64,000 bases of DNA from Methanogenium sp. S4BF. GTDB taxonomy: Archaea; Halobacteriota; Methanomicrobia; Methanomicrobiales; Methanomicrobiaceae. Shown in pieces: positions 11,973 to 25,472 of the stretch. Position 1 is the first letter of the stretch. Each line of letters begins with the position of its first letter. The translations under genes were made by a program, and so were the position numbers. A model generated the notes under the pieces. That model made no database searches and was not told where the DNA came from. It saw only the letters and a program-made list of their open reading frames with translations. The stretch spans positions 2,229,940-2,293,939 of the forward strand of contig NZ_CP091277.1 in assembly GCF_029633965.1 (NCBI RefSeq). Direction: 5' to 3'.

Positions 11973-12004
11973 CGCTCAATTTTCCGGACGGTTCTATACT
12001 GTCG

Positions 12005-18094: not shown

Positions 18095-18661
18095 ATGAAA
18101 TTCAGGGGCATCATTTCAGTCATTATTGTTCTTCTGTTTGTCACCTGCTCCGTTCCCGCTGGTGCTGCGGGTGACGCAGAGTCCGGCATTCTGTTCAGTC
18201 TGGAACCGGTTGCCGGTGTGCAGGACGAATTCCTCCTCTCCTGTGCAGGAGCAGATAACGGGCCTGCAGGCATCTTCGCAACCTTTCCCGGTCCGTTTGC
18301 CATCGTCAGCACCACACTTCCGGAGAGCCAGTACCGGGCGAATGGCACCGGTCTTGCCTGTGCCCTTATTGATGAGGATGCCTGCCAGGTGCAGTTTCGG
18401 TGCGCAGATCTTCAGCCGGGTACCCTTCGTATCTCGTGGGAGGAATTCACCGGCGGCCTTTCCGGTGAGGCGATAATCTCGGTATCCGATGCAGGCGGGG
18501 TGTCGGTTCTCACCGGCGGGAATTCCGGCATTGAGGATACCGGGAATCAGCCTTCATCACCGGTGCAGCAGAGCCCCTTTGCCTGCATCGCATTCACCGC
18601 GTTCCTGTCACTTGCCGCTGCCGGTGTATATGCCGGCAGGAACAGGAGGGATGTAATATGA
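18095..18661 (+). CDS. Secreted, membrane-anchored beta protein; possibly cohesin-like
   Basis: This 188-residue protein has a signal peptide (1-24, ending AGA), a beta-rich domain (about 28-140), a Ser/Gln/Pro linker and a C-terminal transmembrane helix (CIAFTAFLSLAAAGVYAG) followed by basic NRRD, so the domain sits outside the cell. The end of the domain (GTLRISWEEFTGGLSGEAII) looks like the last strands of cohesin or related carbohydrate-module folds. That assignment is by eye and weak. It overlaps the binding-protein gene by 4 bases (ATGA), so the two are translationally coupled. No obvious SD precedes the ATG. Confidence 0.75.
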   Translation: MKFRGIISVIIVLLFVTCSVPAGAAGDAESGILFSLEPVAGVQDEFLLSCAGADNGPAGIFATFPGPFAIVSTTLPESQYRANGTGLACALIDEDACQVQFRCADLQPGTLRISWEEFTGGLSGEAIISVSDAGGVSVLTGGNSGIEDTGNQPSSPVQQSPFACIAFTAFLSLAAAGVYAGRNRRDVI

Positions 18662-19917
18662 ATGCAGCCGGAAGATATCCGTATATGTGGCTTGGGCTTC
18701 TCATTCTGTGTATGGCTGCGGCATCTCCGGTATCTGCTGCAGATTCCGGTGCCCTGCCGCTGGATGTGAACGGAGACGCCCAAATCAGCACAGAGGAGAT
18801 GACCGTTTCCGTCCTTGCATATATGGAGCAGACATATGCAGGTGCGGGTGCTGATGCCGGTCAGTACAGCGACCTTATCGACGGTGCCTATGTCTATACA
18901 TACTGGAATAAAACTGCCAAAACGATCCCTGACTCCTCCGGGCAGTCTGTTATCCTGACACGGCCGATACACCGTGCCGTTGTGATGAACGGAGAGGCTG
19001 CAGAGACGATGCGTTCGCTTGGCTTTGACAGTGCCAATGTTGTCGGTGTCGGAAAATATATTCTGGACGATCCGGTATTTTTCCCTGAATATGCCGGGCT
19101 GCCGAATGTCGGCAGTGTCTGGTCGCCGGATTACGAACAGATAATCTCTCTCTCCCCTGACGTTGTATTCATCTATGCGGACTTCATGGACAGCAAAGGG
19201 GACGAGATACAGGAGACAATCCAGTCGATGAACCCTGCGGTGCATGTGCTGCGTTATGACCTCTTCAGCCCTGACACCTATGCAGGCGAGGTGGAGCTTC
19301 TTGCTGCAGCCATTGACCGGGAAGAGGAAGGGGCTCGCTTTGCCTCATTCTACACCCGGCAGATGGATACGGTCACCGGCAGGGTTGCTGCTATCCCTGA
19401 AGATGAGCGGGTGCGGGTGTACTTTGAAGGCGCTGATGATTTCAAGAGCTGTGCGGAAGGCTCCGGGTATCATGATAAGATCCTCATTGCAGGTGGGCGG
19501 AATATCTTCGGGAACGCCACACCTTCGTACCCGGTGGTCAATCCGGAGTCCGTGCTCTTTGGCAACCCTGGTGTCGTCGTCAAACTGCAGGGTACCGGTA
19601 AGCTTGACTTCGGCGGATATGGGGATGATGATACGTCAAAGACCATTGGGGTATATGAAAGCCTCATCACACGGCCCGGCTGGAATACCATTGCTGCGGT
19701 TAAAGAGGGGCGTGTTCACATCATTGACACCGATATCTTCGGGGGACCGAAACATTTCATCGGTATCCTCTACCTTGCCACCTGGTTCTACCCGGATCTC
19801 TTTGCAGATGTGAATCCTGAGGAGATTCACCAGGAGTATCTCACCACCTATCAGCACAGCACATACGATGTCCATTCGCAGGGCGTCTTTGTCTACCCGG
19901 TGACCCCAATAGTTTAG
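18658..19917 (+). CDS. ABC transporter substrate-binding protein (Fe3+/cobalamin type) with N-terminal EF-hand or dockerin-like motif
   Basis: This 419-residue exported binding protein has a signal peptide (1-27). A calcium-loop sequence, D36-x-N38-x-D40-x-Q42-I-x-x-x-E47, like half a dockerin, comes next. From about residue 95 there is a TroA/BtuF-type periplasmic-binding fold (PIHRAVVMNGEAAETMRSLG, IISLSPDVVFIYAD, LIAGGRNIF, WNTIAAVKEGRVHIID). It delivers a chelate, probably iron, cobalamin or another metal complex, to the permease encoded next. No lipobox was seen, so another anchor is needed; the coupled upstream protein is a candidate. Confidence 0.9.
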   Translation: MNAAGRYPYMWLGLLILCMAAASPVSAADSGALPLDVNGDAQISTEEMTVSVLAYMEQTYAGAGADAGQYSDLIDGAYVYTYWNKTAKTIPDSSGQSVILTRPIHRAVVMNGEAAETMRSLGFDSANVVGVGKYILDDPVFFPEYAGLPNVGSVWSPDYEQIISLSPDVVFIYADFMDSKGDEIQETIQSMNPAVHVLRYDLFSPDTYAGEVELLAAAIDREEEGARFASFYTRQMDTVTGRVAAIPEDERVRVYFEGADDFKSCAEGSGYHDKILIAGGRNIFGNATPSYPVVNPESVLFGNPGVVVKLQGTGKLDFGGYGDDDTSKTIGVYESLITRPGWNTIAAVKEGRVHIIDTDIFGGPKHFIGILYLATWFYPDLFADVNPEEIHQEYLTTYQHSTYDVHSQGVFVYPVTPIV

Positions 19918-19926
19918 GACGGATGG

Positions 19927-21024
19927 ATGGCATTAACAATCGAAGACTTCGGCAGGGAATATTCCCGTGTCAAAACGAAACGAATCTCCTTTTTTCTGCT
20001 GGCTGCTGCATTGCTCATTCTGCTCGCAATGGTTGGCATCACTCTCGGGTCAGGCGACCTCTCGTTCATGGACTCCTATGGTGCCTTCTGGGATGGCTTC
20101 CTCGCAAGAATGTCAGCCTTATTTGGCACCACCACGGAGTCAGTCCCTGATACCCCTATCCAGGAGATTATTATCTGGGACATCCGGCTTCACCGGGTTC
20201 TCTTTGCGCTCGTCGCCGGATTCGGGCTGGCCATTGCCGGGACTATCATGCAGGGCATCCTGAGAAATCCCCTGGCAAGCCCCTTCACCCTGGGCATCTC
20301 GTCTGCTGCCTCATGCGGTGCCTCGGTTGCGATCATTCTCTTTGCGGGTGTCACGCTGGTGAGCGGAAACGTACTGGTTGTCATCATGGCATTTCTCTTT
20401 GCGATGACCGCCTCTTTTATTATCTATGGTATGGCACGGCACAAAGGCCTGAACTCATCGTCTCTTATTCTTGCAGGTATCGCCATCATGTACCTCTTCT
20501 CCGCCATCACCTCGCTTATCCAGTATTTCGGCTCGTCTGATCAGGCAGCAGCGGTGGTCTACTGGATGTTTGGCTCGCTGGAAGGGACCACGTGGCCGAA
20601 ACTGTTGATAGTCACCGCAGTGATTGCAATCCTGACCCCCTACACCGTCATGCGGGCATGGGACCTGAATGCGCTCGCCGAGGGTGATGAGATTGCAAAG
20701 AGCATCGGGGTTCCGGTTGAGCGGACGATGACTGTTTTCATGATGATCGCTTCGATTATCACCGCGGTGATAATTGCGTTCACCGGGACGATCGGGTTTA
20801 TCGGGCTTGTTGCCCCGCATATCACCCGCATGGCAATCGGCAATGACCATCGCTGGCTGGTGCCGGCTTCAGGCCTTGTCGGAGCTGCGATTCTCCTTGG
20901 CGCCGACAACCTCTGCCGGACCCTGATATATCCGTCTGTGATTCCGGTGGGGATTATGACGGCATTTCTGGGAGTGCCGTTCTTCCTGTATTTATTCATG
21001 AAACGGGGTGATACCGGATGGTAG
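19927..21024 (+). CDS. FecCD-family ABC transporter permease
   Basis: The 365-residue membrane protein has about ten transmembrane helices. Family marks are IRLHRVLFALVAGFGLAIAG near residue 96, GILRNPLASPFTLGIS (the conserved NPLA-P loop) and, near residue 290, FIGLVAPHITRMAIG, the cytoplasmic loop that contacts the ATPase. It transports iron chelates, cobalamin or haem in characterised relatives. It overlaps the ATPase gene by 7 bases. Confidence 0.95.
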   Translation: MALTIEDFGREYSRVKTKRISFFLLAAALLILLAMVGITLGSGDLSFMDSYGAFWDGFLARMSALFGTTTESVPDTPIQEIIIWDIRLHRVLFALVAGFGLAIAGTIMQGILRNPLASPFTLGISSAASCGASVAIILFAGVTLVSGNVLVVIMAFLFAMTASFIIYGMARHKGLNSSSLILAGIAIMYLFSAITSLIQYFGSSDQAAAVVYWMFGSLEGTTWPKLLIVTAVIAILTPYTVMRAWDLNALAEGDEIAKSIGVPVERTMTVFMMIASIITAVIIAFTGTIGFIGLVAPHITRMAIGNDHRWLVPASGLVGAAILLGADNLCRTLIYPSVIPVGIMTAFLGVPFFLYLFMKRGDTGW

Positions 21025-21806
21025 CGATATCTGTCAGCGATCTCTCCTATACATACCGGAAGAAGCCGGTATTCTCCGATATCTCCTTTGAGGCGGTGGA
21101 AGGTGAAGTGCTGGGACTGGTCGGCCCGAATGGCTCAGGGAAGACCACGATGATCAAATGCATCGACGGCATCCTGCATCCGCAGGGCGAGGTCCGGGTC
21201 TTTGGTGATCCTGTCTCATCGCTGCACCGGATGGAGATCGCCCGGAGGATTGCCTATGTGCCCCAGTCATTTCCCGAAGGTCTCTCATCGGCTGTCTTTG
21301 AAACGATTCTGATGGGCAGGCGCCCGTATCTCAACTGGCAGACTGGTCCGGAGGATGAGGAGAAGGTCTATCATGCGATGAAGATGCTGGGTGTGGAGGA
21401 TTTTGCCTTCCGGAAGATAAAAGAACTCTCCGGCGGTGAACGGCAGCGTGTAATGATTGCACGCGCCATTGTGCAGGAGACTCCGGTCATCCTGATGGAT
21501 GAACCCACCAGCAGTCTCGATGTCAGGCACCAGATGGAGGTGATGGAGGTGGCGCGAAATCTTGCGGTAGAGAAGAATATCACGGTGATCATGTCCCTGC
21601 ATGACCTCAACCTTGCCTCACGCTACTGCGACCGGATTGTCATGTTCAGGGAGGGGGCCCGGTACGGGTTCGGGACTCCCGGCGAGGTGCTCACGGAAGA
21701 TGTTATCGAACAGGTGTATGGCATTGAGGCACGCATCTATCGAGACGGAGACTCTCCCTATATCATTCCCGTCCGTCCGGCTTCAGGCGCCCGCACGGAA
21801 GAGTGA
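21018..21806 (+). CDS. ABC transporter ATP-binding protein (FecE/BtuD type)
   Basis: The 262-residue ATPase of the importer has Walker A GPNGSGKTT (about 35-43), a Q-loop at YVPQSF, signature LSGGERQRV (near 138), Walker B VILMDEPTSSLD and the switch histidine in MSLHDLN. The C-terminus matches the FepC/FecE family (GFGTPGEVLTEDVIEQVYG). It is the last gene of the four-gene operon. Confidence 0.95.
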   Translation: MVAISVSDLSYTYRKKPVFSDISFEAVEGEVLGLVGPNGSGKTTMIKCIDGILHPQGEVRVFGDPVSSLHRMEIARRIAYVPQSFPEGLSSAVFETILMGRRPYLNWQTGPEDEEKVYHAMKMLGVEDFAFRKIKELSGGERQRVMIARAIVQETPVILMDEPTSSLDVRHQMEVMEVARNLAVEKNITVIMSLHDLNLASRYCDRIVMFREGARYGFGTPGEVLTEDVIEQVYGIEARIYRDGDSPYIIPVRPASGARTEE

Positions 21807-22250: not shown

Positions 22251-25154
22251 CTATACCAGTGCAAACCACCGGTCCCTGAGACCCACATTATACTGGGCAA
22301 TGTACATCGCGTCACCGATGTCTATCGCATTGTTCCAGTTAACGTCGGTCCGTTCAAATGCATCCGTGTTCTTCGCCGGTGATGGTGTTATCCCGACGAC
22401 CTCTTTGAGCACACGCAGGGTATCTGCCTGATTTACTCCGCCGTCACTATTCGCGTCACCGAGAAGGAGTGAAGTGATCCGGATACAGTCCTGCTTTGTG
22501 GTGAAAGCTTCTCCCCCGTTAATCGTCAGATTGACCGTATAGGTGCCGGACGTGGCATAGACATGACTGGGATTCTGTGTGGTTTCGTCGATGGTTCCGT
22601 CATTGTCGAAATCCCATGCCCATGATGTTGCACCCAGAGACTGATCTGTGAACTGCACGGTGAGCGGCGGGATGCCGCACATGGGTGTTGCGGTGAAGTC
22701 AGCAATAATCACATCCCTGTATTCAACCACGAGGATGGTGCCCATGGCATACATGTTGTCTCCCTTTCCCTCTATTGCGAGACTTCTCATCGCCGCCTCG
22801 TTGTCCCCGTCTGTGAGCGCTGTTGTCACGTCATAGAGCGAGAAGCCTATTTGCGGGTCTCTCTGGTAGTCCGCCCAGAACCCTTCATACTCCTGATTAT
22901 TGAAGATGAATACACTCTTATTGGCATCCGCCCCACTGGCAAGGATGGCGATGGCCGTTGCATCTGCGATATTGGTTGTATCAACCCCCGTGAATGGTGC
23001 GTATGCCGTCGCTTCGGTATCACTCACCGAGTATGATGCATATGAGTAGAGCATGTCAAACTCTTCATTTATCCAGATCGCTTTCGTGCTGGTTTCCGGA
23101 TCTTCGTAGACAACGAGAAGATATGCCCCATAGAGGCCATAGGTGTTGTCCGCTTCGGGTGTGATGGTCATGCTGTTGCCCGCGGCATCAAACAGATCTG
23201 TTACATTGTATGCATACAGCCCGTAGGGATTACTGTATGACCCGAACCCTTTTACGTCCTGGTATGCCGCTTCCGGGTATACGATGTTGCCGTTGAATGA
23301 CATTGTGAACGCCGGGTCGGTTCCCATCTTGTTGTACGTCCATCCCTGACAGAGGCGGGCATTTACGACGGTCGCTCCCTCCGGAATCGGGAGGTCTTGC
23401 GGGGACCAGCTGTATGTCTGTTCGGTCCATGAGGCACCGTTATATGCGGTGTTCCCTGCCGACCATGTCAGGTCATACTGGCCGGTGAAAGAAGCTATGT
23501 TCTCGATATCAGCACCATCGGTCCATCGCTTGCCTTTGTATCCGTTGTTGTACACGGTTGCGGTCACGGTGAGATTGTTGTTCGTCTCATCGTTTTCTTC
23601 GACCACGTTGTCTGTATCGGCGTTCACGGTGATGGTGATGGTGTCACCGCCGGTATGGAGGACGGTGTCTGTCACTGTGACGGTTGTGGAGGTGTTTGCT
23701 GCAAGACCGGCAACGTCTGCGGTGTATGGAGTGCCTGCGACGTCAATCGTCACGGTGAATGCACCTGCATCGGTCAGGCCTTTGTTTATCACCGTGGCCG
23801 TGAGGGTGTTCGGCTCCTGTGCAAAGAGATCATTGCCTGCGCCGCTGTTGGGTGTGACATCGGTCACGTTTAAATCAACATCTGCATATTCAACCACGAG
23901 GATGGTGCCCATGGCATACATGTTGTCTCCCTTCCCCTCTATTGCGAGACTTCTCATCGCCGCCTCGTTGTCCCCGTCTGTGAGCGCTGTTGTCACGTCA
24001 TAGAGCGAGAAGCCTATTTGCGGGTCTCTCTGGTAGTCCGCCCAGAACCCTTCATACTCCTGATTATTGAAGATGAATACACTCTTATTGGCATCCGCCC
24101 CACTGGCAAGGATGGCGATGGCCGTTGCATCTGCGATATTGGTTGTATCAACCCCCGTGAATGGTGCATATGCCGTCGCTTCGGTATCACTCACCGAGTA
24201 TGATGCATATGAGTAGAGCATGTCAAACTCTTCATTTATCCAGATCGCTTTCGTGCTGGTTTCCGGATCTTCATAGACAACGAGAAGATATGCCCCATAG
24301 AGGCCATAGGTGTTGTCCGCTTCGGGTGTGATGGTCATGCTGTTGCCCGCGGCATCAAACAGATCTGTTACATTGTATGCATACAGCCCGTAGGGATTAC
24401 TGTATGACCCGAACCCTTTTACGTCCTGGTATGCCGCTTCCGGGTATACGATGTTGCCGTTGAATGACATTGTGAACGCCGGGTCGGTTCCCATCTTGTT
24501 GTACGTCCATCCCTGACAGAGGCGGGCATTTACGACTGTCGCTCCCTCCGGAATCGGGAGGTCTTGCGGGGACCAGCTGTATGTCTGTTCGGTCCATGAG
24601 GCACCGTTATATGCGGTGTTCCCTGCCGACCATGTCAGGTCATACTGGCCGGTGAAAGAAGCTATGTTCTCGATATCAGCACCATCGGTCCATCGCTTGC
24701 CTTTGTATCCGTTGTTGTACACGGTTGCGGTCACGGTGAGATTGTTGTTCGTCTCATCGTTTTCTTCGACCACGTTGTCTGTATCGGCGGTCACGGTGAT
24801 GGTGATGGTGTCACCGCCGGTATGGAGGACGGTGTCTGTCACTGTGACGGTTGTGGAGGTGTTTGCTGCAAGACCGGCAACGTCTGCGGTGTATGGAGTG
24901 CCTGCGACGTCAATCGTCACGGTGAATGCACCTGCATCGGTCAGGCCTTTGTTTATCACCGTGGCCGTGAGGGTGTTCGGCTCCTGTGCAAAGAGATCAT
25001 TGCCTGCGCCGCTGTTGGGTGCGACATCGGTCACGTTTAGATCAACATCTGCTGCACTAGCACCCACGGGCACAATCGCTAACATAAGAATTAATCCCAG
25101 GAACAGAAAGAGTCCGGGAGATTTGTCATGAATAATTGTTCGTTCCGTTTTCAT
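22251..25154 (-). CDS. Large secreted surface protein: two near-identical CARDB/DUF3344-type units, PKD domain, C-terminal dockerin
   Basis: The 967-residue protein has a signal peptide (about 1-34, ending GASA). Two tandem units of 389 residues follow, each a CARDB-like domain (DVDLNVTD... to TNNNLTVTATV) and a DUF3344-like domain (YNNGYKGKRWTDGADIENIA ... WINEEFDMLYSY). Next come a PKD domain (ADFTATPMCGIPPLTVQF, SHVYATSGTYTVNL) and a type I dockerin-like pair (GDANSDGGVNQAD, then TDVNWNNAIDIGD). It is exported and probably held at the surface by protein-protein contacts, since it ends without a membrane helix. The start MKTERT has an AGGTGA SD. The paired units come from a recent duplication of 1,167 bp. 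Confidence 0.88.
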   Translation of the reverse strand: MKTERTIIHDKSPGLFLFLGLILMLAIVPVGASAADVDLNVTDVAPNSGAGNDLFAQEPNTLTATVINKGLTDAGAFTVTIDVAGTPYTADVAGLAANTSTTVTVTDTVLHTGGDTITITVTADTDNVVEENDETNNNLTVTATVYNNGYKGKRWTDGADIENIASFTGQYDLTWSAGNTAYNGASWTEQTYSWSPQDLPIPEGATVVNARLCQGWTYNKMGTDPAFTMSFNGNIVYPEAAYQDVKGFGSYSNPYGLYAYNVTDLFDAAGNSMTITPEADNTYGLYGAYLLVVYEDPETSTKAIWINEEFDMLYSYASYSVSDTEATAYAPFTGVDTTNIADATAIAILASGADANKSVFIFNNQEYEGFWADYQRDPQIGFSLYDVTTALTDGDNEAAMRSLAIEGKGDNMYAMGTILVVEYADVDLNVTDVTPNSGAGNDLFAQEPNTLTATVINKGLTDAGAFTVTIDVAGTPYTADVAGLAANTSTTVTVTDTVLHTGGDTITITVNADTDNVVEENDETNNNLTVTATVYNNGYKGKRWTDGADIENIASFTGQYDLTWSAGNTAYNGASWTEQTYSWSPQDLPIPEGATVVNARLCQGWTYNKMGTDPAFTMSFNGNIVYPEAAYQDVKGFGSYSNPYGLYAYNVTDLFDAAGNSMTITPEADNTYGLYGAYLLVVYEDPETSTKAIWINEEFDMLYSYASYSVSDTEATAYAPFTGVDTTNIADATAIAILASGADANKSVFIFNNQEYEGFWADYQRDPQIGFSLYDVTTALTDGDNEAAMRSLAIEGKGDNMYAMGTILVVEYRDVIIADFTATPMCGIPPLTVQFTDQSLGATSWAWDFDNDGTIDETTQNPSHVYATSGTYTVNLTINGGEAFTTKQDCIRITSLLLGDANSDGGVNQADTLRVLKEVVGITPSPAKNTDAFERTDVNWNNAIDIGDAMYIAQYNVGLRDRWFALV
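22720..23886 (-). repeat. Tandem duplication, copy encoding the second unit (1,167 bp)
   Basis: This matches 23887-25053 with an exact offset of 1,167 bases. By eye I found about seven mismatches, two of which change the protein (T/A in DVxPN, N/T in TVxADTD). The length is 389 codons, so the frame is kept. Confidence 0.95.
23887..25053 (-). repeat. Tandem duplication, copy encoding the first unit (1,167 bp)
   Basis: It directly abuts the other copy at 23886/23887, with no spacer. See the other copy for differences. Confidence 0.95.
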
Positions 25155-25472
25155 ACGATCACCTGTTTTATATTTGTGGTGCCCCATGGGCGGATTCTTA
25201 CATTTCAGAATATTTTCTCAATTCAACCGGATTTCATCCAGTACCCATACCACAAACAATTCACACGTTTATTTTGAATAATCACACTATTTAAAATAAC
25301 TAGTATTATTTGTAATTGTTGATATTGATTTTAGGTTTGGCGTTCCTGACCCTATTTTCAGGAGGCCGGGAGGGCCGGTATTCCACTACATTATATGATA
25401 CTTTTGAAGGCCTGGACGCTATGGAACAGTCTTTCCGAAACATTCCGGGGGAAAAAAGGAGATATTTCTAAG
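25155..25472. other. AT-rich promoter region of the duplicated surface gene
   Basis: The 318-base gap separates two minus-strand surface genes and is much richer in AT than its surroundings. TTTTAAATAG (about 25287-25297, minus strand) is the best TATA candidate and would leave a leader of about 110 bases. No gene is seen. Confidence 0.5.

Follow-up and report, generated by a model that had tools for sequence, protein, structure and literature searches.

Proposed two-protein anchoring of archaeal ABC-importer binding proteins by a portable N-terminal module and a membrane-anchored beta-domain protein

The importer locus and its gene pair

The window, i.e. the whole stretch of 64,000 nucleotides that was analysed, is part of the complete 2.5-Mb genome of Methanogenium sp. 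S4BF. Four genes running in the same direction make up the importer locus; they code for a small secreted membrane-anchored protein, a substrate-binding protein (SBP), a FecCD-type permease and an ABC ATPase. The following features were assigned.

18095..18661, + strand: small upstream gene (188 aa), the proposed tether; open reading frame, homologues directly upstream of module-bearing SBPs
18176..18529, + strand: beta domain of the upstream protein, residues 28-145; AF2 model (pLDDT mostly 83-97), strands within 32-141, homologue alignment
18578..18652, + strand: C-terminal membrane helix of the upstream protein, residues 162-186; predicted model and homologues
18658..18661, + strand: ATGA stop/start overlap, translational coupling; sequence, with overlap or close spacing kept in relatives
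18658..19917, + strand: SBP gene (419 aa) of the PF01497 type, signal peptide without lipobox; open reading frame and Pfam
18751..18933, + strand: N-terminal docking-type module of the SBP, about residues 32-92; alignment and AF2 model (pLDDT 92, pTM 0.74)
18763..18798, + strand: EF-hand calcium loop DVNGDAQISTEE, SBP residues 36-47; direct reading
18985..19731, + strand: Peripla_BP_2 (PF01497) substrate-binding domain; Pfam E 8.8e-20
19927..21024, + strand: FecCD/BtuC-type permease of the same importer; PF01032 E 1.1e-86
21018..21806, + strand: ABC ATPase of the same importer; PF00005 E 1.8e-32

The small gene and the SBP gene are joined by the ATGA overlap, which reads TAATATGAATG and bears out the translational coupling claimed in a preliminary description of this DNA. 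In the relatives' loci examined the SBP start likewise overlaps or closely trails the stop codon of the small gene. With 71.5 bits against a gathering score of 27.5 the SBP belongs to PF01497, and by its family a corrinoid, heme or an iron chelate are the candidate substrates of the importer. Rfam elements, the cobalamin riboswitch included, gave no match between positions 12000 and 26000. The convergent neighbour (22251-25187) codes for a 978-aa secreted DUF3344/CARDB protein that contains two almost identical halves, a PKD domain and, at the C-terminus, a Dockerin_1 domain; the latter scored under the cut-off in the Pfam scan of the locus and over it in the genome search.

Behind its signal peptide the upstream protein forms a 10-stranded beta domain (residues 32-141), and its C-terminal region forms a helix (residues 162-186). 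It had been read as a secreted beta domain anchored in the membrane at its C-terminus, and the AF2 model agrees. A C-terminal hydrophobic segment was found in 101 of the 103 proteins of the upstream family and a PGF-like motif in 39; the near-invariant positions of the family alignment are solely P, G and one W. DUF11 (PF01345) was tried as a family for the beta domain and rejected (Pfam 2/30 at E 0.015 or worse; hhalign 0.2%). Some loci (L137, L138, L142 and L044) carry a long form of the upstream protein with 375-459 aa, whose extra C-terminal region, by reading only, resembles a PGF-pre-PGF surface protein; for the first three of these proteins Pfam returned no significant name. A 556-aa protein with three tandem small-gene beta domains and without the C-terminal hydrophobic segment (L145:544-2211) appears scaffold-like, and no module-bearing SBP was found in its locus.

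The SBP had been described as lacking a lipobox and as carrying a perfect calcium loop after the signal peptide, and both readings hold. The signal peptide ends in an AxA-type site and is followed by neither a lipobox nor a Cys, but directly by the loop DVNGDAQISTEE with the ligands D36, N38, D40, Q42, S44 and E47. The loop comprises 12 residues with ligands at positions 1, 3, 5, 7, 9 and 12 and precedes a helix starting at module position 14, as in an EF-hand. Such a pattern arose in 0.1% of the SBP shuffles, and the loop is retained in 26 of 30 SBP homologues. A scan with the SBP picked out Methanogenium and Methanospirillum relatives. In-frame TGA codons apparent in SBP matches were merely terminal stops.

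A portable module paired with the small gene

Alignment of distant SBPs revealed that the conserved N-terminal element exceeds the calcium loop. It consists of the loop, a helix, a variable linker and a second helix that terminates in L-x-D-A-A-x-x-Y. In the AF2 model of the 61-residue module (scores as listed above) the helices occupy module positions 14-29 and 36-51.

The same module is found N-terminally on binding proteins of about 590 residues belonging to PF00496, a Pfam family distinct from PF01497, and these are likewise preceded by a member of the small-gene family. In L142:1916-3118 the module is inserted mid-domain in a PF01497 SBP, which is followed by a second SBP with the module at its N-terminus. 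Since it occurs on SBPs of both families and also inside the SBP of L142, the module is portable. G020/L018 encodes an in-frame fusion of the beta domain with module and SBP, from which the anchor helix and the second signal peptide are gone.

The calcium loop is a less constant part of the module. A strict loop occurs in 61 of the 115 module proteins. In many pairs it has degenerated or disappeared, and L049, L055, L106 and L133 are examples of its absence; it is dispensable. Because the loop is strict in only this fraction and absent in some pairs, calcium is unlikely to be an essential glue, which weakens the calcium-dependent contact put forward in the preliminary description. Homologues that combine a lipobox and a missing EF-hand with a retained small gene had been named there as evidence against the idea. 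SBPs without the EF-hand and with the small gene do exist (L049, L055, L056), but a lipobox is absent from them.

The preliminary description had also suggested searching other Methanomicrobiales for the gene pair, which proved to be widespread. With a single sequence as query, 44 of 100 relatives showed small-gene homologues, and a profile search detected them in 88 of 232 genomes of the class (Methanomicrobiales). The family is also present in several other families of the phylum, amounting to 142 of 393 genomes sampled overall. The module profile, which was built from loci adjoining small genes so that very different modules elsewhere would escape it, matched 120 places in 81 of the 232 class genomes. 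For 111 of these 120 modules a small gene lies on the same strand within 0.8 kb upstream, with about 0.03 expected by chance. All 81 module genomes of the class possess the small gene, and 149 genomes gave no strong match to either partner.

At the level of the phylum the small gene is present in 102 of 106 module genomes. For 27 modules of the phylum no partner had been listed; 20 of these regions were fetched and the partner was found directly upstream in ten. In the other ten, a contig end is close by in three (L251, L260, L270), and seven showed no partner within the stretch fetched. Outside the class, module-bearing SBPs with no upstream gene within the fetched DNA were seen in L253, L256, L264, L265 and L267. 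In the stretch fetched for L256 (G459:C67:24000-32600) at least four module-bearing SBP genes run in the same direction within about 8 kb, and a small gene is missing there. In some operons up to three module-bearing SBPs follow one small gene (L268).

Distances between beta domains correlate better with those between modules (partial r 0.47) than with those between SBP bodies (partial r 0.30; 71 pairs); the difference is modest, the statistics ignore phylogeny and the correlation is supportive only.

The proposed anchor and its alternatives

A lipobox-like match was found by rule in only 3 of 114 distinct module-bearing proteins, compared with about 15 of the 21 module-less PF01497 SBPs of the order, 14 of them by rule and one (L214) by eye. 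The remaining module-less SBPs mostly carry an uncleaved N-terminal membrane helix. The difference in lipobox content has a Fisher p of about 1e-12, the lipobox being assigned here by rule and not by a trained predictor.

We consider it probable that the two proteins together anchor the binding protein of an ABC importer. Tethering of the SBP by the coupled gene, as already proposed in the preliminary description, is well supported indirectly by the near-obligate pairing, the portability over two SBP folds, the lipobox complementarity and the natural fusion; the cohesin–dockerin type that had been attached to it did not stand. The SBP would be secreted, freed from its signal peptide and itself anchored neither by a lipid nor by a transmembrane segment. 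Its N-terminal module, comprising EF loop and two-helix hairpin, would be the plug that docks onto the beta sandwich of the upstream protein, and the latter, being membrane-anchored, would act as the tether keeping the SBP beside the FecCD permease. The calcium loop may serve as a losable stabiliser of the module rather than as a binding switch. The computational data show the module, the anchor helix, the near-obligate pairing, the portability and the complementarity of the anchors; from them we infer the physical contact, its place on the module and the mainly stabilising role of calcium. The fusion in G020 has no visible anchor, so anchoring would not be essential in that species, or else the contig is faulty.

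We considered three alternatives. First, the upstream protein could be mainly a co-receptor, whose CBM-like sandwich captures the substrate or a surface glycan and hands the ligand to the SBP, anchoring being secondary. Foldseek indeed placed the beta domain nearest to CBM2-type sandwiches (1e5b, TMt 0.58), a weak likeness to carbohydrate-binding modules without a strong match, and the upstream gene lies in an operon with the importer. However, one upstream family serves both PF01497 and PF00496 importers, the substrates of which should differ, and the upstream-family alignment revealed no conserved aromatic ligand face. A co-receptor seems rather unlikely.

Second, the two proteins might not touch each other at all. 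The SBP would then be free under the S-layer, the module would do no more than cap and stabilise its N-terminus, and the operon would simply carry the upstream surface protein along. Binding of the pair is deduced indirectly, both proteins are secreted, and many archaeal surface proteins are stabilised by calcium loops. Yet the co-occurrence is near-perfect, module and upstream gene are shared across unrelated SBPs, and the natural fusion and the lipobox complementarity likewise speak for a contact. We regard this explanation as unlikely.

The third alternative, a true but highly diverged cohesin–dockerin pair, is highly improbable on the evidence given in the following section.

Comparison with cohesin–dockerin pairs and other anchored binding proteins

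The last strands of the upstream protein had been said to recall cohesin. This was an impression that none of the comparisons upheld. The Pfam Cohesin model (PF00963) matched 0 of 30 beta-domain homologues at E up to 1, although 21 of 60 related genomes do contain cohesins that the model detects. Aligned by hhalign with cohesins of the same clade, the beta domain reached a probability of 0.1% (E 0.59), and 97 upstream sequences gave no match either. In the comparison of the predicted structure with cohesin folds, which had been suggested as a check, one cohesin (6kgf_A) is among the weak fold matches with TMt 0.35 and an rmsd of 10.9, and the beta sandwich overlaps better with the CBM2-type sandwiches.

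The dockerin-like nature claimed for the SBP module fared no better. Dockerin_1 (PF00404) was found in 0 of 30 SBPs, although the model does detect dockerins in 30 of 60 genomes, including the neighbouring DUF3344 protein. The duplicated loop–helix repeat is not present in the module, which has a single calcium loop and, as its second half, a helix without a loop. Foldseek placed the module near nothing, the best dockerin having E 2.5 and TM 0.35; five sub-threshold dockerin entries were among its 47 matches, and the profile–profile comparison with dockerins of the clade gave a probability of 7.9%. The loop–helix unit of the module resembles half a dockerin, and this common unit is the reason why dockerins appear among the weak matches.

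An EF loop followed by a helix and these faint resemblances are what a diverged cohesin–dockerin pair could invoke. Against it stand the two Pfam results, obtained with models that do match in the same genome group, the profile–profile and fold comparisons, the single loop, and the 17 of 34 sampled module genomes that contain no detectable cohesin; on these grounds the assignment of the pair to the cohesin–dockerin families is rejected.

The pair would nevertheless work like cohesin and dockerin without being a member of that group. Non-cellulosomal archaeal cohesin–dockerin pairs have been reported (Peer 2009, as cited in PMC9012536). In common with them, a small portable helical module with a calcium loop sits on the cargo, and the proposed receptor is a beta sandwich at the cell surface. 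Where those pairs have duplicated loops, the present module has one dispensable loop and a two-helix hairpin, and its proposed receptor is a beta domain that Pfam, profile and fold comparisons do not identify as cohesin and that is encoded in the same operon rather than on scaffoldins. ANME archaea possess dockerin-bearing SBPs of the NikA/OppA and TroA types (PMC9012536, Chadwick 2022), which likewise have docking modules on ABC-importer binding proteins. These are set apart by their annotation as true dockerins with unspecified partners, unlike the non-Dockerin_1 module with its dedicated upstream partner found here.

SBPs of the TIGR04281 type with a PGF-CTERM anchor share the SBP superfamily and surface anchoring, and the SBP of the window matches TIGR04281 below the cut-off; they combine the C-terminal anchor signal and the SBP in one protein, while in the present case the two are split over two genes. 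The lipobox-containing PF01497 SBPs of the same order have the same domain and importer type, but are lipid-anchored themselves and lack the module.

To our knowledge, the anchors described for archaeal SBPs all belong to the SBP itself and are of the lipid, N-terminal or C-terminal kind. The open literature searched contained no account of the pair. The chances are about even that we are dealing with a hitherto undescribed archaeal pair of a portable single-EF-loop/hairpin module and a dedicated membrane-anchored beta-sandwich receptor, an analogue and not a derivative of cohesin–dockerin, which replaces lipid anchoring of importer SBPs across much of the phylum.

Both partners and the likely boundary of their contact are defined here, which makes the proposal directly testable. 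If true, the pair would also be a small and genetically simple protein pair for archaeal surface display. If confirmed, a split anchor whose docking module can be swapped would be a separate solution for holding SBPs at their importer, and it would explain many of the anchorless SBPs in methanogens and their relatives.
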